In this document: positions 10,023-28,677 of the stretch, piece by piece
Layout of the letters: every line of letters begins with the position of its first letter
Position numbering within the stretch: the first letter of the stretch is position 1
From: Siphonodentalium dalli
Lineage: Eukaryota; Mollusca; Scaphopoda; Gadilida; Siphonodentaliidae
Assembly: GCA_032622095.1 (NCBI GenBank)
Contig: CP136063.1
Coordinates: forward strand, 33,482,987-33,546,986
Reading direction: 5' to 3'
Length of the DNA stretch: 64,000 bases
Program-made: the position numbers and the translations under genes
The notes under the pieces: model-generated
Databases searched by the model: none
What the model was told of the DNA's origin: nothing
What the model saw: only the letters and a program-made list of their open reading frames with translations

Positions 10023-11640
10023 TTATATATGTTATAAACATGCAAATAGTGGCCTCATTTTGGGCTTTCTTCCATAATTTGGAGAGTCAAAGCTGAATAG
10101 ATTACCTTATTTCAAATTTATAAGATGCCAAGCCAGCTGAAATGGTGTATCAAACCTCAAATGGCAGCATTTCTTATCAGATGGAGAGCTCTACTAATAA
10201 ATTAAACATTTATCATGGTCATTGCATGCATTTCAAGGTAGAAAACATAACTTGATGGATATTTTACTCAAAATAGTCTGTGGAAAACTGGTGGAAACTA
10301 CATAAAAGCAATAATGTATGCATCCCTGTATAGCCAAATGAAATTAAACTATGTATATGTTGTTGTATATTTTACCAGAGACATGTATTCCGTTGAGATA
10401 TAGCCTTATATATGTTATAAACATGCAAATAGTGGCCTCATTTGGGCTGTCTTCCATAATTTAGGGAGTCAAAGCTGCATAGATTCCCTTATTTCACATG
10501 TATAAGATGCCAAGCCAGCTGAAATGGTGTATCAAACCTCAAATGGCAGTATTTCTTATCATATGGACATCTCTACTTATAAATTAAACATTTATCATGG
10601 TCATTGCATGCATTTCAAGGTAGAAAACATAATTTGATGGATATTTTACTCAAAATAGTCTGTGGAAAACTTGTGGAAACTACATAAAAGCAATAATGTA
10701 TGCATCCCTGTATAGCCAAATGAAATTAAACTATGTATATGTTGTTGTATATTTTACCAGAGACATGTATTCTGTTGAGATATAGCCTTATAAACATGCA
10801 AATAGTGGCTTCATTTTGGGCTTTCTCCATAATTTAGAGAGTCAAAGCTGAAGAGATTCCCTTATTTCAAATTTATAAGATGCCAAGCCAGCTGAAATGG
10901 TGTATCAAACCTTAAATGGCAGTATTTCTTATCAGATTGACATCTCTATCAATAAATTAAACATTTCTCATTGTCATTGCATGCATTTTAATATACAATG
11001 CAAGGTAGAAAACATCATTTGGTGGATATTTTACTTAAAATAGTCTGTGGAAACTACATAAAAGCAACATTGTATGCATCCCTGTATAGCCAAATTAAAT
11101 TAAACTATGGATATTTTATTCTTTATTTCACCAGAGATATGTATTCTGTTGAGATATAGCCTTATATATGTTATAAACATGCAAATAGTGGCCTCATTTT
11201 GGGCTTTCTTCCATAATTTGGAGAGTCAAAGCTGAATAGATTACCTTATTTCAAATTTATAAGATGCCAAGCAAGCTGAAATGGTGTATCAAACCTCAAA
11301 TGGCAGCATTTCTTATCAGATGGACAGCTCTACTAATAAATTAAGCATTTCTCGTGGCCATTGCATGCATTTTAATATATAGGACAAGGCAAAATACATC
11401 ACTTGGTGGATATTTGACTTAAAATACTTTGTGGAAACTACATAAAAGCCACATTGTATGCATTTATATATAGCCAAATGAAATTCAACTATGGATAAAT
11501 TGGATATTTTATTGTTTGTATCATCAGAGACATGCATTCTGCTAAGATATAGTATTGTGTGTGTTATAAACATACAATAGGTGCATGGCCTCATTGGGTT
11601 TGCTTTCATAATACATATAATACAAGAGAGTCAACTCTGA
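10023..11640. repeat. Satellite-like tandem array, right part
   Basis: It continues the array interrupted at 8,202, with landmarks near 10,196, 10,577, 10,951 and 11,335 (spacing about 374-384 bp). The last unit decays into unique sequence after about 11,600. There is no coding signal. Confidence 0.8.
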
Positions 11641-13512: not shown

Positions 13513-13516
13513 ACGG

Positions 13517-13971
13517 TGTGAGATAACTACCCATTATAATCTCACAACTTGATTCAAACTATACGAATGTCCCAATATATAAAACCCCAAACTCAGATAT
13601 TCGTGTTCGGTTCTCGAAACCTCACACGTCTTACTCTCAGCGAAGATATACACACAATGAAGATGGCTCCCAAATATGGTCAAGGGAGATGACCATAACG
13701 GAAGAACCAATCCCGATGTGTATTGCCAAACACCTCATCTAATATGCATCCCTAATAGTATATAAGAAACAACTACATCCCATCACATCATGCTTTCACT
13801 AGACTCATCTCATACCTAGATCATATCCAGGCATCATTCACACCAGGCATCACCCATTCGGGGACACCAATTCGCGGCGACTATTGATCATTATATTTGT
13901 ACACACTGCATATCTTATTCACAACATAATAAAGACTTGTACCTACTATATCTATGTGTCATTACCTCACA
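13517..13971 (+). repeat. 5' LTR
   Basis: It starts TGTGAGATAA and ends TTACCTCACA, giving a 10-bp terminal inverted repeat with one mismatch and canonical TG...CA ends. TATA-like boxes are at 13,576-13,584 and 13,759-13,766 (TATATAAG), and a polyadenylation signal AATAAA is at 13,928-13,933. It differs from the 3' LTR at two positions (CCCTAATAG versus CCCAAATAG; GCTTTCAC versus GCTGTCAC). Confidence 0.95.
13759..13766 (+). promoter_or_regulatory. LTR TATA box
   Basis: TATATAAG lies 162 bp upstream of AATAAA (13,928). That spacing fits a U3 promoter with R/U5 starting near 13,790. A second TATA-like site is at 13,576. Confidence 0.55.
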
Positions 13972-13980
13972 TAGTATTAA

Positions 13981-13995
13981 TGGTACCGTGAGCAG
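13981..13995 (+). promoter_or_regulatory. Putative primer binding site
   Basis: TGGTACCGTGAGCAG begins 9 nt after the LTR. TGG is the expected complement of a tRNA CCA end. I could not assign the priming tRNA with confidence. Confidence 0.45.
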
Positions 13996-14158
13996 TTCTA
14001 CGTCTCACCACACAACTTGAAGTCTCGGCCACTAGACGATCACTACAGAGCAGAAACAATCTCAAACCGCTACTCAACCACGGGGATACAGCCTTACACT
14101 CCAGCCACGGATAGACAGTCTCACACACTAGACCACTGCACCGGTCAACCATAACTCA

Positions 14159-14320
14159 ACCATTCGGACACACAGGAACCCTTCGGACACACAGGACCGC
14201 ATACCAACCCTTCGGACACACAGGACCGCATACCAACCCTTCGGACACACAGGACCGCACACCAACCCTTCGGACACACAGGACCGCACACCAACCCTTC
14301 GGACACACAGAACCGCATAC
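14159..14320 (+). repeat. 29-bp tandem repeat in retroelement leader
   Basis: TTCGGACACACAGGACCGCA plus 9 further bases recurs every 29 bp (14,182, 14,211, 14,240, and on) for five to six units, with weaker edge copies. It lies between the primer site and the first ORF, where packaging or translation-control elements are expected. Confidence 0.85.
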
Positions 14321-14544
14321 ATACTCATCTGACACAGACGAATCAACCTTTTATTCTCATACAACCAGCTCACATCGTGTATCCAGCTAAAAACATTACT
14401 CACGCCTCTTGCAGACCAGATTCAGATCCACATAAACATTAACATCCGATTTGGACATCCTTCGGCTTCCAATAAACACGACAAGAACATTCTGTACATC
14501 ATTCATCATCACAGACTTGTGCACATTATTCTTCTCGGAAATTG

Positions 14545-14550
14545 GTGAGT
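14545..14550 (+). other. Candidate 5' splice site for env mRNA
   Basis: ATTG|GTGAGTGACC in the leader, upstream of the first ORF, fits the donor consensus. It could join to the acceptor at 25,025 to make an env messenger. Inference only. Confidence 0.35.
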
Positions 14551-14635
14551 GACCATCTTTTCTTTCCCATTTGCTGTCAAATTGCACACCCCCTATTTTT
14601 AGCATTCTTTTACTCCTTTTTTTTTCACGTGGGTT

Positions 14636-15127
14636 ATGGACACATCACCTGATTCTACTACACCTACACTACCTACCCATCCTACTACAATACATGCTTC
14701 AAACGATCAGCCCATACCACCCACCTCTTACAAACAACATTCAGTTCTTAATTTTAAAACTTACTGTAGATACGCTTTACCCCACCAAATAACTTTATCG
14801 CCACAACTCATTAAATATTGCAATCCCATTCGCATTGATATAACGCAAGATACAATCCGCTTATACGTGCGTTGTATGATTACAAATAACTACTCAGGAC
14901 ATACACTAGATTCTTGGAACGAGTGGCATACATTTCCGGCTCATTTTACGGATTATCCAAAACTTATCGTCAACTCTATAGTTGCGGCAATTCCCATAAA
15001 ACATCCTAATAAATCACCTGAATCGTGTCAAATACACCTGAATCGTATAATACACCGCCACGGCACTTGGAAAAAAATACAACATATTTCGCACCCATAC
15101 CATAGATCCCAAAACAGACACCGTTAA
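14636..15127 (+). CDS. Basic 163-aa ORF upstream of gag
   Basis: This intact ATG-started ORF lies between the leader and gag, ending 14 nt before the gag ATG and in a different frame. Residues 1-35 are rich in Pro, Thr and Ser. Residues 36-125 look like a folded domain with alternating hydrophobics and aromatics. The C-terminus is strongly basic and His-rich (ending YHRSQNRHR). I do not recognise a family. Extra ORFs ahead of gag are unusual in gypsy elements. It could be an N-terminal Gag domain (matrix-like) now encoded separately, or an accessory nucleic-acid-binding protein that compensates for the missing zinc knuckle in Gag. Conservation in related copies would decide. Confidence 0.55.
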   Translation: MDTSPDSTTPTLPTHPTTIHASNDQPIPPTSYKQHSVLNFKTYCRYALPHQITLSPQLIKYCNPIRIDITQDTIRLYVRCMITNNYSGHTLDSWNEWHTFPAHFTDYPKLIVNSIVAAIPIKHPNKSPESCQIHLNRIIHRHGTWKKIQHISHPYHRSQNRHR

Positions 15128-15141
15128 TCCTTAATAACATA

Positions 15142-16218
15142 ATGGAGTCACCACCTCCGCAGAGCAGCGATTATTTTCATCCAACCAATTATCAGCATCA
15201 CCTTGAATTAAACAGGGAAACGGACCGATCAACCGCCAGACCCCCCCACACAGACATTACTAATGAAATGGGCAAAGATAATCAGAACTTGCTATTGTCA
15301 CGGCTTACCCATGAAATTAGCCATTTCACTAGTTCTATCCGCGACCAGACTGAAAGTTTAAAAACACAGACAACAATAACAGCACTGCTGGGAATGAATT
15401 CCATTATTGAACCCTTCGATGGCAAGCCTGACGCTTTTCCCCAATGGGTCCATGCGGTGGAAAAATACTCCCGCGCGATTTCGGCACAAGATGAGACTAT
15501 CATAAAAATTGCCGCTCAGACATGTAAATCTCAAGTTTCTGAATTTATTCAACGCTTCATAAATGAAAATAACACAGACGGAAAATTCACGTTCACCTGG
15601 ACCGATCTGAAATCACAGTTACGCTCATTATTCAGTTCCATAACTGATTCGCCTCAAGCCATTTCCTCATTACGAGCCATTAGGCAGAGACATACGGAAA
15701 CAATTGCCATGTTTGCAGAACGCATACGTACCCTTGCTAAACACGCGTATACTGATGAAATTAACACAAGAGCAGTGCAAACACAATTAGTAGCATTTTT
15801 TTCCGACGGTATTCGCGACTCTAGTATTAAATTCAGGCTTCTCAAAGACGACCCCATAACGCTTGATAGAGCTACTGATATCGCCCTACGCGAAATGAAC
15901 CTTCGGCAACGCTATCGCTTACGTTACGGTGAACATCATAATGATTATAACCAATTCCCACAGTTACAATCCCCTCAACCAATGGATATCGACAATAACC
16001 ATCGGCACATTCCAAGAGGGCCATCACAATCCACTTACAACCCCCGTCAATCCAAAGACAGACACCGAATCAATGATCATCCCCACAGGCGCCAACCTTC
16101 AAATTCTCACCACCCCTACTCTGAACCAAGGGTCTCCCATCCAAACGCATCCAGACCATGGATGCAAGATATACTACAACAGCTCAACGACCCCTATTCT
16201 GTACATACTGCAGATTAA
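15142..16218 (+). CDS. gag: Gag capsid-type polyprotein (358 aa)
   Basis: Intact ORF starting at the ATG at 15,142. Residues about 85-270 have the helical Gag pattern of retrotransposons: EPFDGKPDAFPQWVHAVEKY, then IAAQTCKSQVSEFIQRF and SPQAISSLRAIRQRHTETIA, ending AERIRTLAKHAYTDEI. The tail (270-358) is basic and rich in His, Pro, Gln and Asn, and no CCHC zinc knuckle is present. The protein would form the particle and bind genomic RNA through its basic tail. The pol frame overlaps its last 290 nt in the +1 frame but is closed by a TAA at 16,259-16,261. Confidence 0.85.
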   Translation: MESPPPQSSDYFHPTNYQHHLELNRETDRSTARPPHTDITNEMGKDNQNLLLSRLTHEISHFTSSIRDQTESLKTQTTITALLGMNSIIEPFDGKPDAFPQWVHAVEKYSRAISAQDETIIKIAAQTCKSQVSEFIQRFINENNTDGKFTFTWTDLKSQLRSLFSSITDSPQAISSLRAIRQRHTETIAMFAERIRTLAKHAYTDEINTRAVQTQLVAFFSDGIRDSSIKFRLLKDDPITLDRATDIALREMNLRQRYRLRYGEHHNDYNQFPQLQSPQPMDIDNNHRHIPRGPSQSTYNPRQSKDRHRINDHPHRRQPSNSHHPYSEPRVSHPNASRPWMQDILQQLNDPYSVHTAD

Positions 16219-16279
16219 ACAATCATACCACAGACCAATGCAGACGTCGGCCTCAAAATAACAACCAATTTTTAAACAG

Positions 16280-19267
16280 ATGAGGACTCATTGCATCAAA
16301 AATTTCACCCCCACCCACCAACGCAAGGCAATGAGTCCAATAACACATCAAATTAGCACAATATACAACCACAATCATAGATATGCTAAAGATCATCGAA
16401 CATACGAATCTCAAAAGCATAGAGTCTATAATTCACAGCTGCAGTCCATTAATCATTACCCCACGCTACCACCAAACTGCCAAAACCAACGATATATTAA
16501 TTACCGTACGCGGCCTCCACTTGATCTCCCTCGCCACAGGCACGTAACACATACCACTTTCTGCCATAGCAGGTGTTCCTCTATGAAACCCAGATTTCAT
16601 AATTCTTCCAATAAGTCTATCTCACCACTTCTGGATTTAACCTTTCCTCCCCAATTTAAAACCCTGAATCGCCTTGAAAAGCCCAAGCACCAACACATTA
16701 CTAATTCTTACTCATCATCCAAAAGAAAATCAACATGCACCAGTTCTCGCGAATCACATTCCAATACTGCAATTAACCCTATAATACCACCAGTCAAACC
16801 CATACAACACACTATACCAGTACTTAAATATCCAAGTGATATGACAGATGGTGCTCTAAACCAAACACCATGCTCAACTATCATTAAAATACACAAACAA
16901 CGGATTAGATCACTATTAGACTCCGGGGCAACCACCAGTTGCTTGAAATACGACATTTATAGATCCATGCCAAATCGACCACCTTTAATTAAAGAACATG
17001 TGTTACTCACATCAGCCGATGGTACACCAATGAAAGTTTTTGGATCCACACATCTCACATTTAGAATCGGAAAACTCATTCTTACTCACAAATTTGTCAT
17101 ATGTGCAACCTTGTCACGTCCTTGCATTTTAGGGCGCGATTTTATGAAACAACACAGTATTAGACTTTACTTTGATCTAGAAAAATTCAGAATACAGAAT
17201 CAATTATACCCGATGTTAAGGGATGGTCACATTGCATCACTCATCCGATCAACAAATAACGTTTCAGTATCACCCCACTCATGCGCCATCATAACAGGCA
17301 GACTCATAGGGCCAAATGATATGTTTAACACACCTATAATCCGAATAGGCAAAGGTAACATGTCCATTTTCGAACACGAACCAAATGTACATGTAACCGA
17401 CACGCTAGCAGATGCAAATAATCCCAATATTTGCGTCATGATAGAAAACCAATCGGCGTCACATATGTCCATTAGGAAAGGCCGTGTGATAGCACAAGCA
17501 TTTGGCACTCAAGAGCAAATGATATGCACGGCATCCGATGAGCAAAACATTAACTCATCTCCGCCAAACAAACACAGTATAAACACCATAGGTGACCGGC
17601 AAGACATTAACCCTCCAGTCACCAAGACTCAACCTATATCTGTCAATGATATCGTGGCACCTCAACACCTTAAACAGCAGATATTGCAACTAGTATCACA
17701 ATACCCTGATGTTTTTACAAATGACATAAACAAGATAGGATATTGTCCAAAAATTAAAATGAAAATCGACCTCAAACCAAATACTTTACCTATTTTTTGC
17801 AAAAAATATCCGACACCACTGAACAAACAACGAATTATGGCTGCTGAGATAAAAAAATTATTAGATGCAGACATTATTAGACCCACTGCCCACTCATCGT
17901 GGGGATTTCCCAGTCTCCTCATACGCAAAGCCACACCCAATCCCGATGGTACTCCCAATTATCGATTGGTAATCGATCTCAGAAAACTCAATGATGTTTC
18001 CATTCCATTAAAATGGTCTATGCCTAGTTTTACAGAAATATCGTCCAAGTTACTCGGCTCAACTATTTTCAGTATCTTTGATTTATCAAATGCTTATCAT
18101 GTTATTGGAGTCGTACCCGAAGATGTTCCCATATTAACTATGAATACGTCCGAAGGACAATACAGTTATCAAATAGCCCCGATGGGATATGTCTCGAGCT
18201 CAGGGTATTTTTTAAAACTCATGAACATAGCCCTACACGATTTACCATTTGTAGAAGGATTTGTCGATGACCTGATCTGTCATAGCTCCGATCCTCAAAC
18301 GCATATACAGCAGCTCACAAAATTATTTGACAGACTCAGGGAATACGGCTTAATAGTTAAACTATCAAAATCTAAATTTTGCCAACCACAAGTCAAATTT
18401 TTAGGACATATTATTTCCGACAAGGGCACATCCCCTGACCCTGAAAAAATTTCAATTATCAAGTCTCTACCACCTCCGAAATCAGTTAAAGAAGTCCGCA
18501 GATTACTGGGAATTCTTAATTTTTACAGGTCATATTCTCCTACTTTCGCATCTACGGCATTGCCTTTAATCAAACTCACAGCCAAATATGCTAAATTTGT
18601 GTGGGATGCGCCGTGCCAAACAGCGTTCGACGCGCTTAAAGAAAGCTTAGCAACCGCCCCCATCTTAGCTTACCCAAATCCCGACAAACTGTTCATTCTG
18701 ACAGTAGATGCATCTATACATAGTATCGGGGCGATACTATCACAATATGCTCATAGCCAAGATGATAAACACGTTGAACTACCAATCGCGTTCGCCAGTA
18801 AAAAACTTAACAAATCACAAAGGAATTATTCTGTCACGGAAAAAGAAGCATTCGCGATATATACGTTTGCAAGGCAATTTAAATTTTACTTACAAGGATC
18901 CCAAGTAGAGATTAAAACAGATCACTTACCCCTCATCCACATGTTTAAAAAACAGGATCTGATAAACACAAAAATTCAAAAATGGTTTTTGGAAATATCA
19001 GCATTGAACCCAAAAATTACTTATATTAAAGGCACGAACAATGTTATGGCAGATTTTTGCAGTCGGATAAACCCCGACACACACCCGTGCATCAATTCTT
19101 GCACCGATAGCGACCCAAATCCACCCACCAATCCCCTTGTACAGGATATTAATATACTTGACATGAAAGATATTCAGGAATTTTCAAAACAAAAAAAACA
19201 ACCAAAAAGAAAACGGATTCCGAACCACCAGTTGATCTCGACGACAGCCCGGTCCTTCCTCCTATAA
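16280..19267 (+). CDS. pol: Pol part 1: protease, reverse transcriptase, RNase H (995 aa)
   Basis: The N-terminal 180 residues are basic and low in complexity. The aspartic protease motif is LLDSGATTSCL (catalytic Asp 214). RT carries YRLVIDLRKLND (from residue 561) and the active site FVDDL (Asp 663/664). RNase H shows TVDAS (Asp 810), TEKEA (Glu 854) and KTDHLPL (Asp 881), all retained. The start is the first ATG after an in-frame TAA at 16,259. The frame stops at 19,267, before integrase, which continues one frame back. An in-frame A AAA AAA heptamer at 19,192-19,198 is exactly where a -1 slip would enter the integrase frame. Gag is in frame 1 and this ORF in frame 2, so Pol needs re-initiation, shifting or readthrough. 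Confidence 0.93.
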   Translation: MRTHCIKNFTPTHQRKAMSPITHQISTIYNHNHRYAKDHRTYESQKHRVYNSQLQSINHYPTLPPNCQNQRYINYRTRPPLDLPRHRHVTHTTFCHSRCSSMKPRFHNSSNKSISPLLDLTFPPQFKTLNRLEKPKHQHITNSYSSSKRKSTCTSSRESHSNTAINPIIPPVKPIQHTIPVLKYPSDMTDGALNQTPCSTIIKIHKQRIRSLLDSGATTSCLKYDIYRSMPNRPPLIKEHVLLTSADGTPMKVFGSTHLTFRIGKLILTHKFVICATLSRPCILGRDFMKQHSIRLYFDLEKFRIQNQLYPMLRDGHIASLIRSTNNVSVSPHSCAIITGRLIGPNDMFNTPIIRIGKGNMSIFEHEPNVHVTDTLADANNPNICVMIENQSASHMSIRKGRVIAQAFGTQEQMICTASDEQNINSSPPNKHSINTIGDRQDINPPVTKTQPISVNDIVAPQHLKQQILQLVSQYPDVFTNDINKIGYCPKIKMKIDLKPNTLPIFCKKYPTPLNKQRIMAAEIKKLLDADIIRPTAHSSWGFPSLLIRKATPNPDGTPNYRLVIDLRKLNDVSIPLKWSMPSFTEISSKLLGSTIFSIFDLSNAYHVIGVVPEDVPILTMNTSEGQYSYQIAPMGYVSSSGYFLKLMNIALHDLPFVEGFVDDLICHSSDPQTHIQQLTKLFDRLREYGLIVKLSKSKFCQPQVKFLGHIISDKGTSPDPEKISIIKSLPPPKSVKEVRRLLGILNFYRSYSPTFASTALPLIKLTAKYAKFVWDAPCQTAFDALKESLATAPILAYPNPDKLFILTVDASIHSIGAILSQYAHSQDDKHVELPIAFASKKLNKSQRNYSVTEKEAFAIYTFARQFKFYLQGSQVEIKTDHLPLIHMFKKQDLINTKIQKWFLEISALNPKITYIKGTNNVMADFCSRINPDTHPCINSCTDSDPNPPTNPLVQDINILDMKDIQEFSKQKKQPKRKRIPNHQLISTTARSFLL
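19192..19198 (+). promoter_or_regulatory. Possible -1 frameshift site (A AAA AAA)
   Basis: Codons of the RT-RNase H frame read CAA AAA AAA CAA here, giving a homopolymeric slippery heptamer. Slipping back one base continues in the integrase frame, which is open from 19,198 onward. A one-base change in the A-run would look the same. Confidence 0.45.
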
Positions 19268-19323
19268 CTAATATAAGAGATGAACAATCAGGAGACCACA
19301 CAATCTCCGAGATTATCAAACAA

Positions 19324-21027
19324 ATGCAATCAACAAATATACCCGAAAAATTAGCAAAAACCTTTATTCTCAAAGAGGGTATCCTACACTATATATCAAT
19401 ATATAATGACATACCTAAATTACGTATATATATAACGGACAAAATAGCACAAGAAGTTATATCCCAATATCACAGTCTCGGCCATAGAGCGGTACAATCG
19501 CTATACGCGACCATACGGAACAGATATTACACACCTCAGTTGTTTGCAAAAATTGTCACATACATAAACAATTGTCATACATGCCGACAACGAAATGCTT
19601 ATAATCCAAAAATCCCGCTTCAACCAGTCACTGCCCCATCAAGGCCAGGACAACTCATAGCTATCGATCTTATGGGACCATTTTCCCCCAAAACACAGTC
19701 AGGAAATAGATTTATCTTAACTATTATTGATCAATTTTCATTACATACTTTAGCATACGCATTTCCTAACAAAATGGTGGATACAATTTTAGAAAGATTG
19801 AATTCAGAGTATTTCACTTTATTTGGATCAGTTGAAGAAATATTAACAGATAATGGGTCCGAGTTTGCAAACTCTACCTTCACTGAATTTTGTAAATATT
19901 ACCATATCAATCACCGCCTCACTTCGTTCTACAGACCCCAAAGTAACGGTAAGTCAGAACGTTCGCATAGAAGTCTAGCATCAATCATTTCAACAATCAC
20001 CCAAGCAAATGTAGAAAATTGGGACCTATATCTAAATTATGCATCACAAGCAATGAACTTCCATTGTTCCAGTGTACATACACATTCACCATTTTTTCTA
20101 ACTTTTTTTAGAGAACCACAGATAAGCATAGACCGAATTTTAACACACAGAGAAAAGTATTTAGGAGAGGATTTTTTAGCCACCACGCTTCAAAATCAAC
20201 ACATTATTTTTAAAACTACAAAATCTCTTCTCGAAACAGCCTCTCGCAACCACAAACAGAACAAAGGTGGATCTATTCCAACCTTTAAAATAGGCCAATC
20301 CGTCTATTACAAAATCCACCAACCAAATCACAAATTTTCATTTAAATATGAGCCGTTTTGGCGTATCTTGAAACAGACAGGCCCCATATCTTACATATTA
20401 AGACATGACCTATCTGCTAAATTAACAAAATCACATGCTAAACACATCAAACCATCCCCCATTGATTGGCCTACACCTCAAATTCCCAATCACTTAAAAA
20501 ATAAACGACATAATCGATTTGCATTTCCACCGAGTGAAGCCAGTGTCGATAATAATAGCTCTCAATCCACATTGGAATCAGACGATGACCTCAAAACCAC
20601 GGCAATTAAGCGCGCTCAACTTGAGCGCTCAAACACAGACGACAGCTCTTCAATACCATTGGCTGAATTAGCCAACAGACTCATGGCTTCGAAACATTTT
20701 AATAAAACAGACAGCCAATCACCCCCGGATTTTTCACCCAGCGACCAATCTAGGCCCCAAACACAGGAACCAAATGTCATAAAACACAAATTAATTACAC
20801 AAAATTCTTATAGTACGACGCCAGACACAAAATCGGATCGCGCAGATAACAAACGCGGCCGGCATCGTAAATTATATTCACCATACTCCAAACACACGCC
20901 TAAAGATTCATCGTTTTCTAATTCCTTCCAATATACATCACCCGACAGCCGTTCGACAAATTGGTCAAACGAAAGTACGGAAACATATGATTTATATCAG
21001 ATGACAACTGATATCGAACATTCATAG
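19324..21027 (+). CDS. pol: Pol part 2: integrase (567 aa from first ATG)
   Basis: The zinc-binding H-H-C-C set is His50, His54 (HSLGH), Cys84 and Cys87 (CHTC). The catalytic core has D115 (IAIDLMGPF), D176 (LTDNGSEF) and E212 (SNGKSER), the D,D35E spacing of gypsy integrases. A GPY/F-like region follows (residues about 330-380, FKYEPFWRILKQTGPISYIL). The last 190 residues are Ser/Asp/Lys-rich and unstructured-looking. The frame is open upstream of this ATG to 19,198, so the natural protein is probably a continuation of the RT frame and the ATG is only nominal. Confidence 0.92.
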   Translation: MQSTNIPEKLAKTFILKEGILHYISIYNDIPKLRIYITDKIAQEVISQYHSLGHRAVQSLYATIRNRYYTPQLFAKIVTYINNCHTCRQRNAYNPKIPLQPVTAPSRPGQLIAIDLMGPFSPKTQSGNRFILTIIDQFSLHTLAYAFPNKMVDTILERLNSEYFTLFGSVEEILTDNGSEFANSTFTEFCKYYHINHRLTSFYRPQSNGKSERSHRSLASIISTITQANVENWDLYLNYASQAMNFHCSSVHTHSPFFLTFFREPQISIDRILTHREKYLGEDFLATTLQNQHIIFKTTKSLLETASRNHKQNKGGSIPTFKIGQSVYYKIHQPNHKFSFKYEPFWRILKQTGPISYILRHDLSAKLTKSHAKHIKPSPIDWPTPQIPNHLKNKRHNRFAFPPSEASVDNNSSQSTLESDDDLKTTAIKRAQLERSNTDDSSSIPLAELANRLMASKHFNKTDSQSPPDFSPSDQSRPQTQEPNVIKHKLITQNSYSTTPDTKSDRADNKRGRHRKLYSPYSKHTPKDSSFSNSFQYTSPDSRSTNWSNESTETYDLYQMTTDIEHS

Positions 21028-21559
21028 TCATGTATCAAAGTATCTCACAATCACTAATGATAGATAATTTACATAACTTTTATTAATATTATATAAAACA
21101 GGTCTTACAAAGGCATAACCCTACTGCAATTCTCCCATCCCACCCCCTTCGGCACAGAGATAGACACCCACACGATAAACTTCGTTCATACCAGTGGTAT
21201 GATCATTAAACAGGGCATGATCTCGTTTCCCAAATCTCTAATTCAATTATCGCTAACAGGTGTGCATTGAGTCATGATGCCGAAGTAAATTTAACCAACA
21301 TGTAATATATATCTTTCGCTAAGGACTGACACTCGGCGTCTTTGACTAAATGTTTATTCACGAAACATGCCAACCTGTCGATCATTGCCTCTCGCACCAA
21401 TCTCCGAAATATGGCAAACTCCCGTCCATGACTCAGTTACATCTTCATTCCCTCCAATATGCTTAACTCAATCATATATTCATTGACATAGCAAACGAAT
21501 CCTACAATACACTATATATTATACAGTAGGTTATACAGTGATCACGGCATATTTCCCTC

Positions 21560-22170
21560 AATACCACCCCCCCCCCCCCTCCTGCCAAACAACGCTCTTT
21601 ATCATAAGAACGATTGGTACAGAAACCACGGCATATTATCCCTCAATGTAGACACCCCCACCCACCAACGCCACAATACACTATATATATTATATAGTAG
21701 TTGATACAATAATCACGGCATATTTCCCTCAATATCACCCCCCCCCAATACCGCCACAAAACGCTCTTCATTATAGAACGATTGGTACATAAACCACGGC
21801 ATTTCTCCCATCAACAACACTTCCCCAATCCCGATCTCATTGTAACGGACATTTGTCCGACCTTATTTGAGGCCATGAAACCATAAATACCGCCACAAAA
21901 CGCTCTTCATTATAGAGCGATTGGTACATAAACCACGGCATTTCTCCCATCAACAACACTTCCCCAATCCCTACCTCATTTTACGGACATTCGTCCGACC
22001 TTATTTTAGGTCATGACACCCTAAAACTGCCACTAAACGCCTTTTGTTATATGGCGTGTGGAATATTAACCACGGCATGCATCACCCAGATATTCAGTAT
22101 TTCCCAATCCTAATATGAAAGTCACCATTACACCGCCCCCCCCCCCTCGAACAAACAAACGCTCTTCATT
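21560..22170 (+). repeat. 139-bp degenerate tandem repeat in the pol-env interval
   Basis: Units share ACGCTCTTCATTATAGA, CGATTGGTACA, AACCACGGCAT and the hairpin CGGACATTTGTCCG. The clearest pair starts at 21,747 and 21,886 (139 bp apart), with diverged units on either side. Each unit ends near a poly-C or poly-A-rich stretch. Confidence 0.75.
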
Positions 22171-22348
22171 CTAAAACTTAGATAACCCAATCAATAACAG
22201 TATTGAACGCTTGGCAGCGGTCTAATAATATATTTATCTCTTTACATTTCAACCAATCTTAGACTATAATTAAATAATCTTTGGCGATTTAGCACGTTTA
22301 CAAAAGTTACTCTTTGTAGCTCAACCAATATTAACACCTTTGGGCCAT

Positions 22349-22392
22349 TACCACGATTACAACAATAACAACAACAACAACAACAACAAAAA
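22349..22392. repeat. AAC microsatellite
   Basis: About ten AAC trinucleotides with minor interruptions lie downstream of the first antisense ORF. Confidence 0.8.
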
Positions 22393-22549
22393 CAATACAT
22401 TTCTTTTCACTGAATTTGTCAGCAAGATGTTATTTCTACAGGCTAACACGGTGAATAACCACAAAAACAATTCAATTCAGAATGCAAGCCAGCTCTTGAT
22501 CCAGGGACGGTCCGAATTCTTCAGGGGCAGCAGTCACACCAACATCTTC

Positions 22550-22825
22550 TTATAGCACTCTCCGATGTTGGCTCCATAGGTCTACTTTCCTCTGCCTCTC
22601 ATCTATAATCTCCAGCCGGAGATTTATCACCTTGTGGCATCGTTCTAATTCAGACACGGTACTCAAATACCGTGCCCAATCTATACTGGTCCCTCCAGCC
22701 AGGCACACAGCAACTATAACATCATAAAATGCCAATATGTGATCCACATATTGCATTGTTACCTCATATTGGCTCGTTTCTAACACAGCAACCTCAGCCT
22801 CCAAAAATCGCAGGTAATCAGACAT
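22550..22825 (-). CDS. Antisense ORF A1 (91 aa), candidate accessory gene
   Basis: It runs against all other genes of the element. The open frame continues upstream to 22,867, but only through a GTG. The first ATG is at 22,825 (MSDYLRFLEAEVAVLE...). A minus-strand TATA box, TATATAAGG (22,877-22,869), would place transcription start near 22,847, about 20 nt before this ATG. The protein is helical-looking, with a hydrophobic middle (VDHILAFYDVIVAVCLAGG) and a charged C-terminus (DERQRKVDLWSQHRRVL). It resembles ORF A2 at aligned positions: MS..L..LE, VD.I...Y, G.S....RYL.T and LE. No known family is recognised. Confidence 0.55.
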   Translation of the reverse strand: MSDYLRFLEAEVAVLETSQYEVTMQYVDHILAFYDVIVAVCLAGGTSIDWARYLSTVSELERCHKVINLRLEIIDERQRKVDLWSQHRRVL

Positions 22826-22868
22826 AATGAAAATTATGTCAGAAATAACCCTTGTCGATATTCCCACA

Positions 22869-22877
22869 CCTTATATA
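22869..22877 (-). promoter_or_regulatory. Antisense TATA box for ORF A1
   Basis: TATATAAGG on the minus strand lies 52 nt upstream of the ORF A1 ATG, a normal TATA-to-start spacing for a short leader. Confidence 0.45.
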
Positions 22878-23489
22878 CTTATCTCATATTGGCAGATAGC
22901 GTCCGTATCGAATCGGGACGCTGTGCCAAACCAAGCAAGCACTCTCGAAGATTCCCGAGGGACATGCTAGGCACTATCTATCTCAAATATATATTACAAA
23001 CCCCTGTTCCCGCTAACATCTAACCAGCTATCAAGCGATATCTCTTCGATACATCTAAACATAATATCCAATGATAAATAAACACACTAAACATCATCTA
23101 ATAATCAGATATAACTCAATGCTGGCAAGTCCAGTGTGCATCGGTGCACCATGCACACAGGGCTAAACTTGCTTCCCTCAAAAAAATAAAATAAATAAAT
23201 ACAATAAAAATATGTTACACAAGTATCATATCAATAAATAGGAATATTTCAACATAAACTAATAACATAAACAAACATTACCCAGCCAATTTATCTGCCT
23301 CGTAACATAACCAAAACTATCCATAATTATTCATCAAACTCAAATAATCCTATTTAGATGAAATAATTAACCAAGGTTCACAACCTCACAAGTGTATCAT
23401 AATATCAAACTTAAGTGACACACACACACCAATTATTATGACATGAACACCGATAGGTGAACCTTCCTTAACGATTTAGTATGCTTACC

Positions 23490-23792
23490 CCCCCCCCCCC
23501 ACGTATCTAGTGAGATACAATTCCCCATCCAATTTCCATAACACCCAAACCCCCTTCCACAAGAAATTCCCAATAACGTACATGTTAACGGCCAATCAAG
23601 GCCTAATTAACTTAACATGTAACCTATAACACACGACAAACGTGTGTACACAGTTACCCATCAAATCCTCATATACCATTCCCCATCCAATTCCCATGAT
23701 ACCCGAACGCCCTTCCACAAGAAAATCTCCAAATACAACGTACATGTAACGGCCAATCAAGGCCCAGTTAACTTAACATGTATAGAACACAC
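23490..23792 (+). repeat. Duplicated 114-bp block
   Basis: Copy 1 (23,520-23,633) and copy 2 (23,678-23,792) share ATTCCCCATCCAATT, CCCTTCCACAAGAAA, ACGGCCAATCAAGGCC and TTAACTTAACATGTA, with scattered differences. A poly-C run precedes copy 1. Confidence 0.75.
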
Positions 23793-24445
23793 AGTGCACA
23801 ATCGTGCATAAAAATCCCAGATACATGTACAGAGCTAACTGAAGCTCACTCTTACATACATGTAACGCGCAATACACGGACCCCACATGCATCTATATCG
23901 TGCATAAAACAAAAATCCAATACACGTGAACACGAAATTCACGTACAAACTTCACCCAATACCGCCGCTTACCAAAATGTGCATATACAGTGCCAAAATA
24001 GGCTCACCATGTGCACTTTATCCCAAACGACACAAATATTGTCAGTCCTTAAGCAATATTTTTCATATTCTTCCCTACCCCATATATTATTGTCAAATAT
24101 ACTTGCCAATGATTAACTGTCATTAATAACATATTCATATACGCCCTATATCGGATCTTATAACTCAAATTAACACATGTCCAACATCAGTTCATACTAC
24201 CATTACTATTCATTAAGGCGAAACGATGTATAGAACCCACGTATATAGAAGCATCAAGTTTCTTCATCCAAATCCCACACACGTACAATCATCGAGTTGT
24301 CCCAATAGGACAACGGAATACAAATTTCCGATATAATTTGTCCAGGAACAAAATATCACGTCAGGAACACATTTTGTTCAAATATATCAATACAATTAAA
24401 TAGGAACATACAATTACCATTCATATACAATGCTACCGATATAGA

Positions 24446-24700
24446 TCACCATGCAAAATATCTCCCAACACCACCATATTGTATACATACATTTTCCTCC
24501 AGCCACAACGTACACAGATATCGATCGCTCTTGGATGATACCCCAGTCCGGGCGTGCTCATTTCCCCGCTCAAATTGATCGACTATCTGATCATTCACGT
24601 ACGTCAGATATATCGAATCGACGATCACCCCAAAATAACCTAGACCAGACGCCCTCGCATGGCTTAACTTACACTCTAACTCACTTAAAAGTTGACTCAT
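24446..24700 (-). CDS. Antisense ORF A2 (84 aa), candidate accessory gene
   Basis: The first ATG on the minus strand is at 24,700 (MSQLLSELECKLSHAR...), ahead of which only a TTG extends the frame to 24,751. A minus-strand TATA box, TATAAAAG (24,762-24,755), predicts a start near 24,732, about 30 nt before the ATG. Residues VDSIYLTYVNDQIV align without gaps to the matching segment of ORF A1, and GVSSKSDRYLCT aligns to its GTSIDWARYLST, suggesting an ancient duplication. The end (GGVGRYFAW) is unlike A1, so splicing or a C-terminal change is possible. Function unknown. Confidence 0.55.
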   Translation of the reverse strand: MSQLLSELECKLSHARASGLGYFGVIVDSIYLTYVNDQIVDQFERGNEHARTGVSSKSDRYLCTLWLEENVCIQYGGVGRYFAW

Positions 24701-24754
24701 AACTGCAAAGATTGAAAGACAGGCCCGTAATATTTTCCAGCCATCATACAAATG

Positions 24755-24762
24755 CTTTTATA
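24755..24762 (-). promoter_or_regulatory. Antisense TATA box for ORF A2
   Basis: TATAAAAG on the minus strand lies 62 nt upstream of the ORF A2 ATG, the same arrangement as for ORF A1. Confidence 0.45.
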
Positions 24763-24951
24763 CCGCTATACCACTAATTACCTTTATCGACACGCCTAAT
24801 ACACGCAGCGCTGCTAATTAGTATCCACACTGGCATCGCGTGACGTCATTTTTCGTCGATTTCTGGGGGTACCCAGATACACAGTAAACAGTAAACTTAC
24901 ACCGGCCGAAAAATCTCATTGATTAATCAAACCAGTTAACCCATATAAGCC

Positions 24952-27228
24952 ATGCCCACGCGAATCTATCTTTATAATCAGATACCGGCTAACCCGCTAA
25001 TACACACCTATATTTTTACTTATAGGGGTGCAAGCGATATGAAGCCTAAAGAAAACTTCGTTAAAGCGACCCTCTTCATACTTATCATCGGCTTTCAAAC
25101 TAGTGACGCTATGTTAACTCGACAGAACATGTTATTTTTGCATCACCGGCAAATTGCTGTCTCAAATGAAAATTGGGTTCTCAGTTTTCTCATCGAACTC
25201 ACACCATATTATACCTACATAGCAAGACTCGCTACCGACATAAGGATGGCCCAAAATAAACTCAATAGCATTTGTGCCACGTTTCATCAAAGCACATATC
25301 ACCATAACAAACCTCCATTCAGGAACGAGACAAATAACATTAACTTTAATCTCATCAACATTTTGACAGATTTACAAACTGAATTAGCAGCGGCTCTCAC
25401 GGAAACAAAACAAATCCAATATGAATATCATAATTATTATCAACTCCATAATACCAAAAGACTCAAACGAGCAATATTACCCGTAATAAGCGATATTGCC
25501 AAGTTTCTATTCGGCACCCCTTCGATGTCAGATATTACACATGTAGAAGATAACATACGAACCCTCTACCAAAACCAAAAAAAAATCCAACACGATACTC
25601 AAACCGCTTATTCTATCATGAATATCACACGCGTCATTTCAAACGAAAATCGCCAACGAGTCAACACATTATCAACAACAATATCCAATATTCAAGCCAC
25701 ACTTCGAAAAGAAACACATCGAACTCAAAAACACGTACATACAATTGAAATATTCACAATCATCAACACTAAGTTTCTAGTAATATTACATGAAATACAA
25801 CAAGATGTTATCCAAGCAAAATTATATTTGCGACATCTTAAAGTTCAAATTGCCTCTCTAATTAACCACCGATTTACACCGGAGATCATAAGCCCAATAC
25901 ATTTAAAAAAGGCACTTGACAGTATAACGAAATTACTTCCAGCCCATTTGAAGTTACCATTCCCCATAGAATCGGGAATTGCAAAATATTACCAACATTT
26001 GAAGACACAAACCATACTCACAGACAGCAGACTAATCATTACCATAACAATTTACTTACGCGATATCAGAATGCAGTTTGACATATTCCGCGCTATACCA
26101 TTTTTTTATCCATTAGACCCTCGAGACCCAAGACTCAGACACAACAATAAATATACAGTTGCCCGAATCGATATTACTCATAATTACCTGCTATTATCTC
26201 CCGACCGATCCAAATATACCACCATTGGTGACAATCACCCGTGTATTTTAAACAAATTACCATATTGTAAAATTCAAAAAATTTCAATCGCCGCATCACA
26301 TAATCATAACTGCCTACTCAACATATTCACCAATGATACAAAAAATACCGCCACAAATTTCCCTATAGCCATTTACCCTCAGTATAATTTACCATCCGCT
26401 ATTAAGCTGGCGGCATGTACATGGCTTATAACAACCACGAAAGCTCATACATTTACAGTAAACTGTCATCACAATCTCTTAAGAAAACGACCGTATAGAA
26501 TCACAATTTTACCCCCCATCGCAACGATAACTTTACCACCAAGGTGCATAGCTACATCAGCTAGTATCAAACTAATTGCATTCACAACTTTGAACTCATC
26601 AAACATCACCATCAAGACACAAATAACCCAATTACAATCAACTATTGAATTACATAAATTGCCACAATGGAAGCCATTATTTTCCCAAATTCATAACTTG
26701 CCCCCTCAAGTATCGATTCCAAACAAGTTACCCCCCATAAAGCAACTATCATTATATGATTTTCTGCAAACAGTCACATCCCTGCAACCCATCAAACAAA
26801 AGAAAAAACAGAATTATTACCAAATTATCATTCCCGCGGTCATTACGTTCGTATTAATTTTACTGATTGCCATCTCAAGTCGCAAATACATTATTCAGTG
26901 TATCACGAAAATTTCCCAATACCAGACTCAACGCAATCACAACACGCGACGAATTAAAATCGCAAAGCGACGAAATAAACTTAACCAAATGATAAAGGGA
27001 ACTGATATGCAACTTCGTCACAGACTAACCCCACCAATACCCAATGAAGCCACGAAAGATATTCATTTGTCTCCAGCTAAGGAACCTCAAATACAAATCA
27101 CACAAGAAGATTTGACATTTCCCAAAAAACACCCGCGAGATGTCGATGAAGAATCATCCACACTACGACCTATGAAAATAATGAAAACTCACGCGTCCAT
27201 CCATAACCCACCACTTAATCTATATTGA
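24952..27228 (+). CDS. env: Envelope fusion glycoprotein, F-type (758 aa)
   Basis: Likely real start is Met30 (25,039): it begins a signal peptide (hydrophobic LFILIIGF, cleavage near A53) and lies 13 nt after a splice-acceptor-like TTACTTATAG|G. A furin site RLKR (170-173) is followed by a fusion-peptide-like ILPVISDIAKFLFG, the hallmark of baculovirus-F/errantivirus Env. A long helical region (about 185-300) follows, then a Cys-rich ectodomain, a transmembrane segment IIIPAVITFVLILLIAISS (about 626-645) and an unusually long basic tail of about 110 residues. N-glycosylation sequons are present. It would mediate membrane fusion. The ORF is uninterrupted. Confidence 0.85.
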   Translation: MPTRIYLYNQIPANPLIHTYIFTYRGASDMKPKENFVKATLFILIIGFQTSDAMLTRQNMLFLHHRQIAVSNENWVLSFLIELTPYYTYIARLATDIRMAQNKLNSICATFHQSTYHHNKPPFRNETNNINFNLINILTDLQTELAAALTETKQIQYEYHNYYQLHNTKRLKRAILPVISDIAKFLFGTPSMSDITHVEDNIRTLYQNQKKIQHDTQTAYSIMNITRVISNENRQRVNTLSTTISNIQATLRKETHRTQKHVHTIEIFTIINTKFLVILHEIQQDVIQAKLYLRHLKVQIASLINHRFTPEIISPIHLKKALDSITKLLPAHLKLPFPIESGIAKYYQHLKTQTILTDSRLIITITIYLRDIRMQFDIFRAIPFFYPLDPRDPRLRHNNKYTVARIDITHNYLLLSPDRSKYTTIGDNHPCILNKLPYCKIQKISIAASHNHNCLLNIFTNDTKNTATNFPIAIYPQYNLPSAIKLAACTWLITTTKAHTFTVNCHHNLLRKRPYRITILPPIATITLPPRCIATSASIKLIAFTTLNSSNITIKTQITQLQSTIELHKLPQWKPLFSQIHNLPPQVSIPNKLPPIKQLSLYDFLQTVTSLQPIKQKKKQNYYQIIIPAVITFVLILLIAISSRKYIIQCITKISQYQTQRNHNTRRIKIAKRRNKLNQMIKGTDMQLRHRLTPPIPNEATKDIHLSPAKEPQIQITQEDLTFPKKHPRDVDEESSTLRPMKIMKTHASIHNPPLNLY
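25011..25025 (+). other. Candidate 3' splice site for env mRNA
   Basis: A pyrimidine-rich TATTTTTACTTATAG ends at 25,025, with branch-like CTAAC/CTAAT upstream at about 24,990-25,000. The next ATG (25,039) opens the signal peptide. Confidence 0.45.
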
Positions 27229-27340
27229 TCATTTTCCCAATAATACCATTTTGTTTTCCTATAAGGGGCACAAACCCACAGACTAATTCTAATATCGTTA
27301 CTGCATGCATACCACGTCAGCTGCATATAATAACGCCATT

Positions 27341-27700
27341 ATGACACGTGCCAACCCCAAGAGTTGGACAACTGACCGCCGATTATCTTCAATAACATTG
27401 GTCACGGATCTCCCCACCTATCAACAAATGCATTAATTAATGACTCATATACCACACTCCAAACAATATTTCACCTCTGACCCATGCTCTCAACAATTCC
27501 CTGAGCAATTAACGGCAGATATGACACGTGCCAACCCCAAGAGTTAGACAACTGACCGCCGATTATCTTCAATAACATTGGTCACGGATCTCGCCAACTA
27601 TCAACAAACGCATTAATCAAAGTCTCATATACCACACTCCAAACAATATTTCACCTCTGACACATGCTCTCAACAATTCCCTGTGCAATTGACGGCAGAT
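27341..27700 (+). repeat. 180-bp tandem duplication downstream of env
   Basis: Two units, 27,341-27,520 and 27,521-27,700, each begin ATGACACGTGCCAACCCCAA and end GACGGCAGAT or AACGGCAGAT, with few differences. Each contains an E-box CACGTG. A U3-proximal enhancer role is possible but unproven. Confidence 0.9.
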
Positions 27701-28204
27701 GAGAAACATTTGGTCTCTCATTACCACAATACCGAATGTATACATATCGTCATGATTTTATTAACAATACAACATGCATTTATATAATACATCACCAATG
27801 TTCATCATTTACAAAACATACCATGCACTATTACCGTATTGTTATATTCATTACTTCTCATACTTGTATCTCTATATTCTATTATCATACCTTAGCCTAC
27901 ATATCAATATAGCACGCATTATGACTGCTTGCACGATCATTTTATATACCAACCCATATATGCTTTTCCCACCATTTATTTCATAATCTCATAATATTGC
28001 GTATCATCATTTTAAGACAACTTAATATCGCATATCATCATTTTAAGACAACTTTGTTCCACATGTATTAATCATAACTTCACCACAATCAATGTTATTA
28101 TACTTCATTTCAGCCTCATCCACATTACATGATCACAATTACCCCAGTTAGGTCCATAATTTTGATGTTACATAAGATTTTCCGCTGCGCTAAAAATCTT
28201 ACAC
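27701..28204 (+). other. 3' untranslated region of the LTR element
   Basis: A+T-rich, with a short imperfect duplication (GCGTATCATCATTTTAAGAC / GCATATCATCATTTTAAGAC, about 27,999-28,050). A 70-codon frame at 27,774-27,986 is hydrophobic but unrecognised. Confidence 0.5.
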
Positions 28205-28218
28205 GGGTGGGGGACATA
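28205..28218 (+). promoter_or_regulatory. Putative polypurine tract
   Basis: GGGTGGGGGA followed by CATA lies directly before the TG of the 3' LTR, the usual position for plus-strand priming. Confidence 0.6.
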
Positions 28219-28673
28219 TGTGAGATAACTACCCATTATAATCTCACAACTTGATTCAAACTATACGAATGTCCCAATATATAAAACCCCAAACTCAGAT
28301 ATTCGTGTTCGGTTCTCGAAACCTCACACGTCTTACTCTCAGCGAAGATATACACACAATGAAGATGGCTCCCAAATATGGTCAAGGGAGATGACCATAA
28401 CGGAAGAACCAATCCCGATGTGTATTGCCAAACACCTCATCTAATATGCATCCCAAATAGTATATAAGAAACAACTACATCCCATCACATCATGCTGTCA
28501 CTAGACTCATCTCATACCTAGATCATATCCAGGCATCATTCACACCAGGCATCACCCATTCGGGGACACCAATTCGCGGCGACTATTGATCATTATATTT
28601 GTACACACTGCATATCTTATTCACAACATAATAAAGACTTGTACCTACTATATCTATGTGTCATTACCTCACA
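28219..28673 (+). repeat. 3' LTR
   Basis: 455 bp, with the same ends (TGTGAG...CTCACA) as the 5' LTR and two substitutions. AATAAA at 28,630-28,635 would serve as the polyadenylation signal. ACGG follows as the target duplication. Confidence 0.95.
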
Positions 28674-28677
28674 ACGG

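Follow-up and report, generated by a model that had tools for sequence, protein, structure and literature searches.

Paired antisense genes between pol and env of a Ty3/gypsy-type retroelement from the scaphopod Siphonodentalium dalli

Background

Among reverse-transcribing elements, delta- and lentiviruses and some elements of plants and fungi are known to carry antisense genes; we take ASP of human immunodeficiency virus type 1 (HIV-1) to be one such retroviral gene. To our knowledge, few of their roles are established outside human T-cell leukemia virus (HTLV). Here we describe two small antisense genes, termed A and B, in a complete long terminal repeat (LTR) retroelement of the scaphopod mollusc Siphonodentalium dalli. 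The element lies in a stretch of 64,000 nucleotides, called the window (assembly GCA_032622095.1, contig CP136063.1, positions 33,482,987 to 33,546,986), and the genes occupy the 3.9-kb interval between pol and an env-like gene.

The closest described systems are plant and fungal elements. According to the consulted parts of two reports, antisense extra open reading frames (ORFs) reside downstream of pol in Grande, RIRE2, Retand, PvRetro13 and the fungal element Boty (PMC7264820, PMC11963269). The same parts report an own promoter for maize Grande gene23 (PMC7264820) and 104 antisense ORFs counted over a cluster set for Retand (PMC11963269); judging from this count, some Retand elements must carry more than one. 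The portion consulted on retroviruses describes the antisense promoters of HTLV-1 and HIV-1 as TATA-less and located within the 3' LTR (PMC10186651). Among animal elements, antisense RNAs of micropia from Drosophila hydei are described without coding capacity, and bdelloid rotifer LTR elements are credited with additional ORF3 types, again in the parts consulted (PMC7264820, PMC5408684).

Two homologous antisense genes

An earlier note, made from the window sequence alone, had proposed that the two belong to a duplicated family of antisense accessory genes that have promoters of their own. The positions that it gave for the two ORFs and for a TATA box before each are borne out, and the in-frame extensions upstream of both ORFs indeed lack an ATG. 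The relevant features are as follows.

22550..22825, minus strand: antisense gene A, 91 aa, from the ATG at 22825 to 22550
24446..24700, minus strand: antisense gene B, truncated in the window copy, 84 aa, from the ATG at 24700 to 24446
22869..22877, minus strand: TATATAAGG, TATA box of A, starting at 22877, 52 nt upstream of A
24755..24762, minus strand: TATAAAAG, TATA box of B, starting at 24762, 62 nt upstream of B
24490..24491, no strand: deletion junction of the window copy, with ~0.58 kb lost inside B
24841..24848, no strand: TGACGTCA palindrome upstream of the TATA box of B, its sole occurrence in the element

We consider A and B to be paralogous antisense accessory protein genes of an env-bearing Ty3/gypsy-type element, with a probability of about 0.85 that applies to the gene pair and not to a regulatory role.

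The element holds 10 minus-strand ORFs of at least 60 aa, and two of at least 84 aa are matched by shuffled sequences with P = 0.02 (1000 shuffles). The N-terminal match reported previously, 10 identities over 34 residues without gaps, is present but weak when judged from the window copy alone (p = 0.005 when anchored at the N terminus). The window copies of A and B are no more similar than shuffled sequences by gapped local alignment (p = 0.43) or by the best ungapped match at any offset (p = 0.60), and composition tests on the window alone give p values of 0.09 and 0.16. The gapped alignment and the composition tests would suit chance ORFs in a strand-skewed interval whose similarity is coincidental. 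That explanation, to which we assign a negligible probability, is refuted by the intact form of B, by conservation across copies and by a second element family.

The 2.23-Gb assembly (9 contigs) was searched with a 501-bp stretch over A. This yielded 133 candidates, of which 40 were scored; 39 other copies (L009-L047) were retrieved, together with B stretches for 16 copies (L048-L063). Matches were ranked by similarity and only the best were considered, which biases counts of open frames upwards. In the eight B-bearing copies whose retrieved sequence covers both sides (L049, L050, L052, L055-L057, L059, L061), window positions 24489 and 24491 correspond to the two ends of an extra ~577-593 nt, and the deletion is absent from the other copies examined. 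Residues 1-70 of B in the window copy (24700-24491) are genuine, and the final 14 are read-through past the deletion junction.

The start of B is present in 14 of the 16 fetched copies. Twelve of them encode a protein of 101 aa, L055 one of 69 and L062 one of 65. The segment missing from the window is the one most similar to A (...ENERCYLVLNLRRQIREERRRLIDLWS... versus ...ELERCHKVINLRLEIIDERQRKVDLWS...); thus, the deletion accounts for the weak similarity in the window copy. Full-length B aligns to A with a score of 103, whereas 5000 shuffles have a mean of 26.8, a standard deviation of 4.9 and a maximum of 60; 36 of 91 residues are identical, with gaps of 2, 6 and 2 codons. The 8-residue shift and the pattern G.S....RYL.T from the earlier note form part of this alignment, but the downstream LE is unpaired in it. 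Scores no better than shuffled controls, which the note had named as grounds for giving up the duplication, are obtained from the window copy alone, and this objection fell once intact copies were compared. On the strength of the full-length alignment, A and B are beyond doubt homologous, that is, paralogues.

Of the 39 close copies retrieved, which were selected by similarity to the A region, 38 have an uninterrupted full-length frame for A. Among the best 150 of 243 A matches, 118 of the 126 that extend from residue 1 to at least residue 83 have no stop, and identity to A grades from 100% to 63%. For B, 68 of 72 full-length matches among the best 150 of 269 are likewise free of stops. Stops or frameshifts in both ORFs had also been named beforehand as an adverse outcome; copies with stops or frameshifts do exist, although few are found among the matches listed.

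The distribution of B is a point against a gene pair that every element needs. The 39 A-bearing copies comprise 23 that match B, including two with a broken B (L019/L055 and L029/L062), 14 with a junction that lacks B, and 2 assigned to neither group. B is not required in each spreading copy, and is either dispensable or supplied in trans; supply in trans would explain the numerous copies without B.

The subfamily without B (L012, L016, L017, L025, L027, L033-L035, L039-L042, L046 and L047) retains A and the remainder of the interval. In L051, which is copy L012, the loss spans from near the TATA box of B to past its stop. Copy L093 has gag sequence immediately after B and has lost a large internal part or been rearranged. 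A-like genes also occur as tandem pairs ~500 bp apart at five places in G000 C3 (55774397/55774900, 55911701/55912200, 55918814/55919313, 56842472/56842975 and 57157996/57157511). They show 66% and 78% identity to A, all 10 matches are free of stops, and the pairs are evidently a further tandem duplication of A. Elsewhere (G000 C6:212385137-212391253), two A stretches lie 3.5 kb apart, perhaps through partial internal duplication.

Selection on the encoded proteins

Three diverged copies of A (L102, L103 and L104) were retrieved for comparison. A differs from L102 (79% identical protein) by 55 synonymous and 20 nonsynonymous changes (proportions of synonymous and nonsynonymous differences, pS and pN, of 0.84 and 0.10) and from L103 (76% identical protein) by 44.5 and 27.5 (pS 0.71, pN 0.13). 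Differences at the three codon positions number 15/10/50 against L102, 18/9/45 against L103, and 27/15/49 against L104, in which 34 of 91 residues are changed. When the changes that separate A from L102 and L103 were placed at random 3000 times, more residues were changed in every case, and 91-92% of the placements contained a stop. For the most distant pairs compared among the A and B proteins, pS and pN come from protein-guided alignments near saturation and serve as support only.

Between subfamilies 1 and 2, 22 codons of B differ and 6 change the residue, compared with 11-20 in the other five frames. Random placement gives a mean of 15.5 changed residues and a minimum of 8 (5000 trials); pS is 0.25 and pN 0.03, with 4, 2 and 17 differences at the three codon positions. 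The counterpart of B in the second element family, B' (L094 versus L096), has 5 changed residues, against a random mean of 13.7 and a minimum of 7 (5000 trials), and 4, 2 and 14 differences by codon position. Of the six frames, the minus-strand coding frame shows the strongest conservation, and the plus-strand frames show less. These substitution patterns establish that the protein sequences of both A and B are under purifying selection and that the minus strand is coding. One observation runs the other way: among the 39 young copies, A has 17 nonsynonymous and 6 synonymous changes, no stop and one frameshift, and so gives no sign of constraint. Such a pattern is expected from drift after insertion.

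These data bear on the proposal that the antisense units act as RNA, with internal promoters that produce regulatory or silencing transcripts and with incidental ORFs. The promoter anatomy described below equals the ORFs in strength, and non-coding antisense transcripts from LTR elements such as micropia have been reported (consulted part of PMC7264820). However, the predominance of third codon positions among the differences in A, B and B', together with the superior conservation of the coding frame, largely refutes RNA as the sole explanation, which we judge very improbable. An RNA role may exist in addition to the protein role. A non-coding antisense RNA of the micropia type was itself rejected for A and B, given coding-frame conservation and the pS/pN pattern.

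Promoter-like elements

The motif TATAWAAG is found only four times in the 15.2-kb element: on the plus strand at 13759 and 28461, in the LTRs, and on the minus strand at 22877 and 24762. Two ORFs of at least 60 aa with this motif 15-100 nt upstream were produced by 0.025% of 4000 dinucleotide shuffles of the 3.9-kb interval. When the 10 minus-strand ORFs of at least 60 aa were kept fixed and two sites were placed randomly, the same arrangement arose in 0.29% of cases; both tests were devised after the sites had been seen.

The first ATG 3' of the TATA box of A is the start codon of A. For B, two earlier ATGs, at 16 and 19 nt from the first base of its TATA box, precede the expected start site; the next is the ATG of B. 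A complete YYANWYY initiator accompanies A, with its A at 22846, 31 nt downstream of the first T of the TATA box; at the equivalent position, B and the LTR likewise show an A, with an incomplete match to the motif. The TATA box of A (TATATAAG) is retained in 38 of 39 copies and is also present before A', the counterpart of A in the second family. The palindrome TGACGTCA, presumably a CRE/ATF-type site, resides upstream of B in 14 of 14 copies. It is upstream of env as well, and could hence be used by either strand.

A and B are probably each transcribed from their own TATA promoter, and could thus be expressed independently of the 5' LTR; at the sequence level this is well supported by the position of the TATA boxes, their conservation and their recurrence in the second family. 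Set against this are the variation of the TATA box of B among 14 copies (TATAAAAG in 9, TATAAATG in 4 and TATACAAG in 1) and two negative results in the window copy: the minus strand has no AATAAA within 1 kb downstream of A (the nearest is at 21358), and none between 22880 and 24460.

A second element family and the age of the duplication

A second, only distantly related element family carries the same antisense pair, A' and B', each preceded by a TATA box. Its env-like frame is 42% identical to the env-like ORF of the window over residues 39-477. Ten loci were examined, and the six that have both env and a B-like gene carry them on opposite strands in every case. Identity between the families is 26-40% for A-A' and B-B'. 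An alignment of six rows, including two pairs of near duplicates, has nine invariant positions. The proteins A, B and B' are acidic (isoelectric points of 5.15-5.42), and A' is basic (9.35). Thus, the claim of a duplicated antisense accessory gene family is supported by the homology of A and B, by their synonymous and nonsynonymous patterns and by recurrence in a second family.

The duplication of A and B probably predates the split of the two families. Two facts argue to the contrary: raw identity is higher for A-B (40%) than for A-A' (26%), and A' forms a long branch of unsure placement, with the 90/93 fork below the mark for strong support. The duplication itself is surer than its age.

No env is present in the 1.5-2 kb retrieved to either side of four B-like loci (L096-L099), as might be expected if A and B were captured host genes and not the element's own. 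However, these loci match the interval of the second family at 86-93% beyond the gene, and among the matches listed the genes occur at dozens of dispersed places; capture is accordingly a very unlikely origin.

Copies L066 and L092, one each from subfamilies 1 and 2, differ unevenly along their length. Divergence is 7.6% in the coding part of B, 21% in the leader between TATA box and ATG, 9.7% from the leader to env, 1.2% in the env part and 2.8% on the far side of B. The B cassette, promoter included, seems to have passed between lineages by recombination.

The host element

The remaining features of the element are listed here.

13517-28673: complete LTR retroelement, 15.2 kb, with LTRs, gag, pol and an env-like gene
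13517..13971, plus strand: 5' LTR, 455 bp, TG...CA, 99.56% identical to the 3' LTR (two mismatches)
28219..28673, plus strand: 3' LTR, 455 bp, paired with the 5' LTR
13759..13766, plus strand: TATATAAG of the 5' LTR (TATAWAAG), with a second copy at 28461
15142..16218, plus strand: gag (Pfam Retrotrans_gag, 8.3e-7)
16280..19267, plus strand: pol, protease, reverse transcriptase and RNase H (Pfam RVP, RVT_1, RT_RNaseH)
19324..21027, plus strand: pol, integrase (Pfam Integrase_H2C2, rve), in a frame open from 19162
24952..27228, plus strand: env-like ORF, 758 aa, beginning after the 3.9-kb pol-env interval

The element is a Ty3/gypsy-type LTR retrotransposon (Metaviridae), because it has an LTR pair and a target duplication, and its Pfam domains follow the order protease, reverse transcriptase, RNase H and integrase. 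The LTRs begin with TGTGAG and end with CTCACA, and ACGG is duplicated at both flanks (13513-13516 and 28674-28677). The TATATAAG site of the 5' LTR is taken as its presumed promoter. Direct reading of the env-like ORF reveals two hydrophobic stretches, one after an RLKR site and one at the C-terminal end. Searches of Pfam, PDB and protein collections returned no significant match for this ORF; by motif only, it presumably resembles the env of errantiviruses.

Several other observations concern the surrounding sequence. The integrase and RNase H frames differ and overlap at 19162-19324. A GC skew of about -0.35, with A in excess over T, runs along the whole element (13517-28673) and is mostly gone outside it. 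Short near-tandem repeats, some with hairpins, occur in the pol-env interval at 21504-22078 and 23515-23782, and a ~380-bp tandem repeat in four copies lies upstream of the element (10059-11497).

Possible roles of A and B

Protein A is predicted to be helical by one model of five. Family and structure searches gave A and B no convincing match to a known fold or family, which weighs against a functional assignment. Neither A nor intact B has a Pfam match to PF04195 (TRP28) at E<=10, or to bZIP at the same threshold, at which a diverged bZIP could escape detection.

Promoters independent of the LTR would allow A and B to be made while sense transcription is low or off. The small proteins could then act in trans on the element's life cycle, through sense transcription or RNA handling. 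By analogy with HTLV HBZ and with the role proposed for Grande gene23, we give even odds to A and B being trans-acting regulators of the element.

A different function for the same gene pair would be host-directed, as antagonists of restriction or silencing, or structural, as parts of the particle, with antisense orientation by happenstance. Sequences do not tell a regulator from an antagonist, and the wide divergence between families fits an antagonist equally; the acidic A, B and B' and the basic A' are also in keeping with it. For a particle part, promoters apart from the LTR are a poorer fit than they are for timing control. We regard non-regulatory functions as possible though less probable than regulation, with action against a host defence as the next candidate after it.

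Comparison with known systems

The aORF-3R genes (maize Grande gene23, rice RIRE2, Silene Retand TRP28 and Botrytis Boty), as far as the sources consulted describe them, are likewise antisense genes between pol and the 3' LTR that are present in many copies. By position and by selection on their frame, A and B are coding ORFs antisense to gag-pol downstream of pol, as aORF-3R genes are. They differ in that the element is from an animal and has an env-like gene, with the pair between pol and env. They are, moreover, a pair of small paralogues, both preceded by a TATA box, and no TRP28 or other Pfam domain is recognized in them.

HTLV-1 HBZ, APH-2 and AS1/AS2 of bovine leukemia virus resemble A and B as antisense accessory genes of env-bearing reverse-transcribing elements. 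In contrast, A and B have internal TATA boxes, are two paralogues and have no recognized bZIP domain. The ATGs of A and B are separated from the 3' LTR by 5.4 and 3.5 kb and from their consensus TATA boxes by 52 and 62 nt, which argues against a promoter of the HBZ type, although a spliced A/B transcript that originates in the 3' LTR may exist.

Micropia shares antisense transcription in an animal LTR element, but A and B encode proteins under selection. Errantiviruses and other env-bearing gypsy elements share gag, the same order of pol domains and presumably a similar env-like ORF further downstream, marked by RxKR and a hydrophobic stretch, whereas the window element is 15.2 kb long and carries antisense genes in its pol-env interval. 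Bdelloid rotifer elements are also animal LTR elements with extra ORFs, whose proteins, in the part of the source consulted, differ from A and B. The terms "antisense" and "reverse orientation" each appear a single time in PMC5408684, with regard to small RNAs. No antisense gene of the A/B type appears in the covered part of the literature on rotifer, annelid, Troyka and Kuafuortervirus elements, a partial coverage from which we claim no absence in print.

On balance, we lean toward an undescribed antisense accessory protein family of env-bearing animal gypsy-type elements, which would have duplicated before the families split, would still be duplicating, would have a TATA promoter for each gene, and would be an independent counterpart of HBZ. 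If so, antisense expression could proceed in an element whose LTR is silent. The pair raises the questions of whether antisense accessory proteins have originated repeatedly and whether latency, silencing or RNA handling is under their control. With tens of young copies and measurable selection on the proteins, such questions become testable in an animal, and annotation of LTR elements on a single strand can overlook genes under selection. Antisense extra genes themselves are already known; what appears to be new here is a duplicated, TATA-led antisense pair in an env-bearing animal element.
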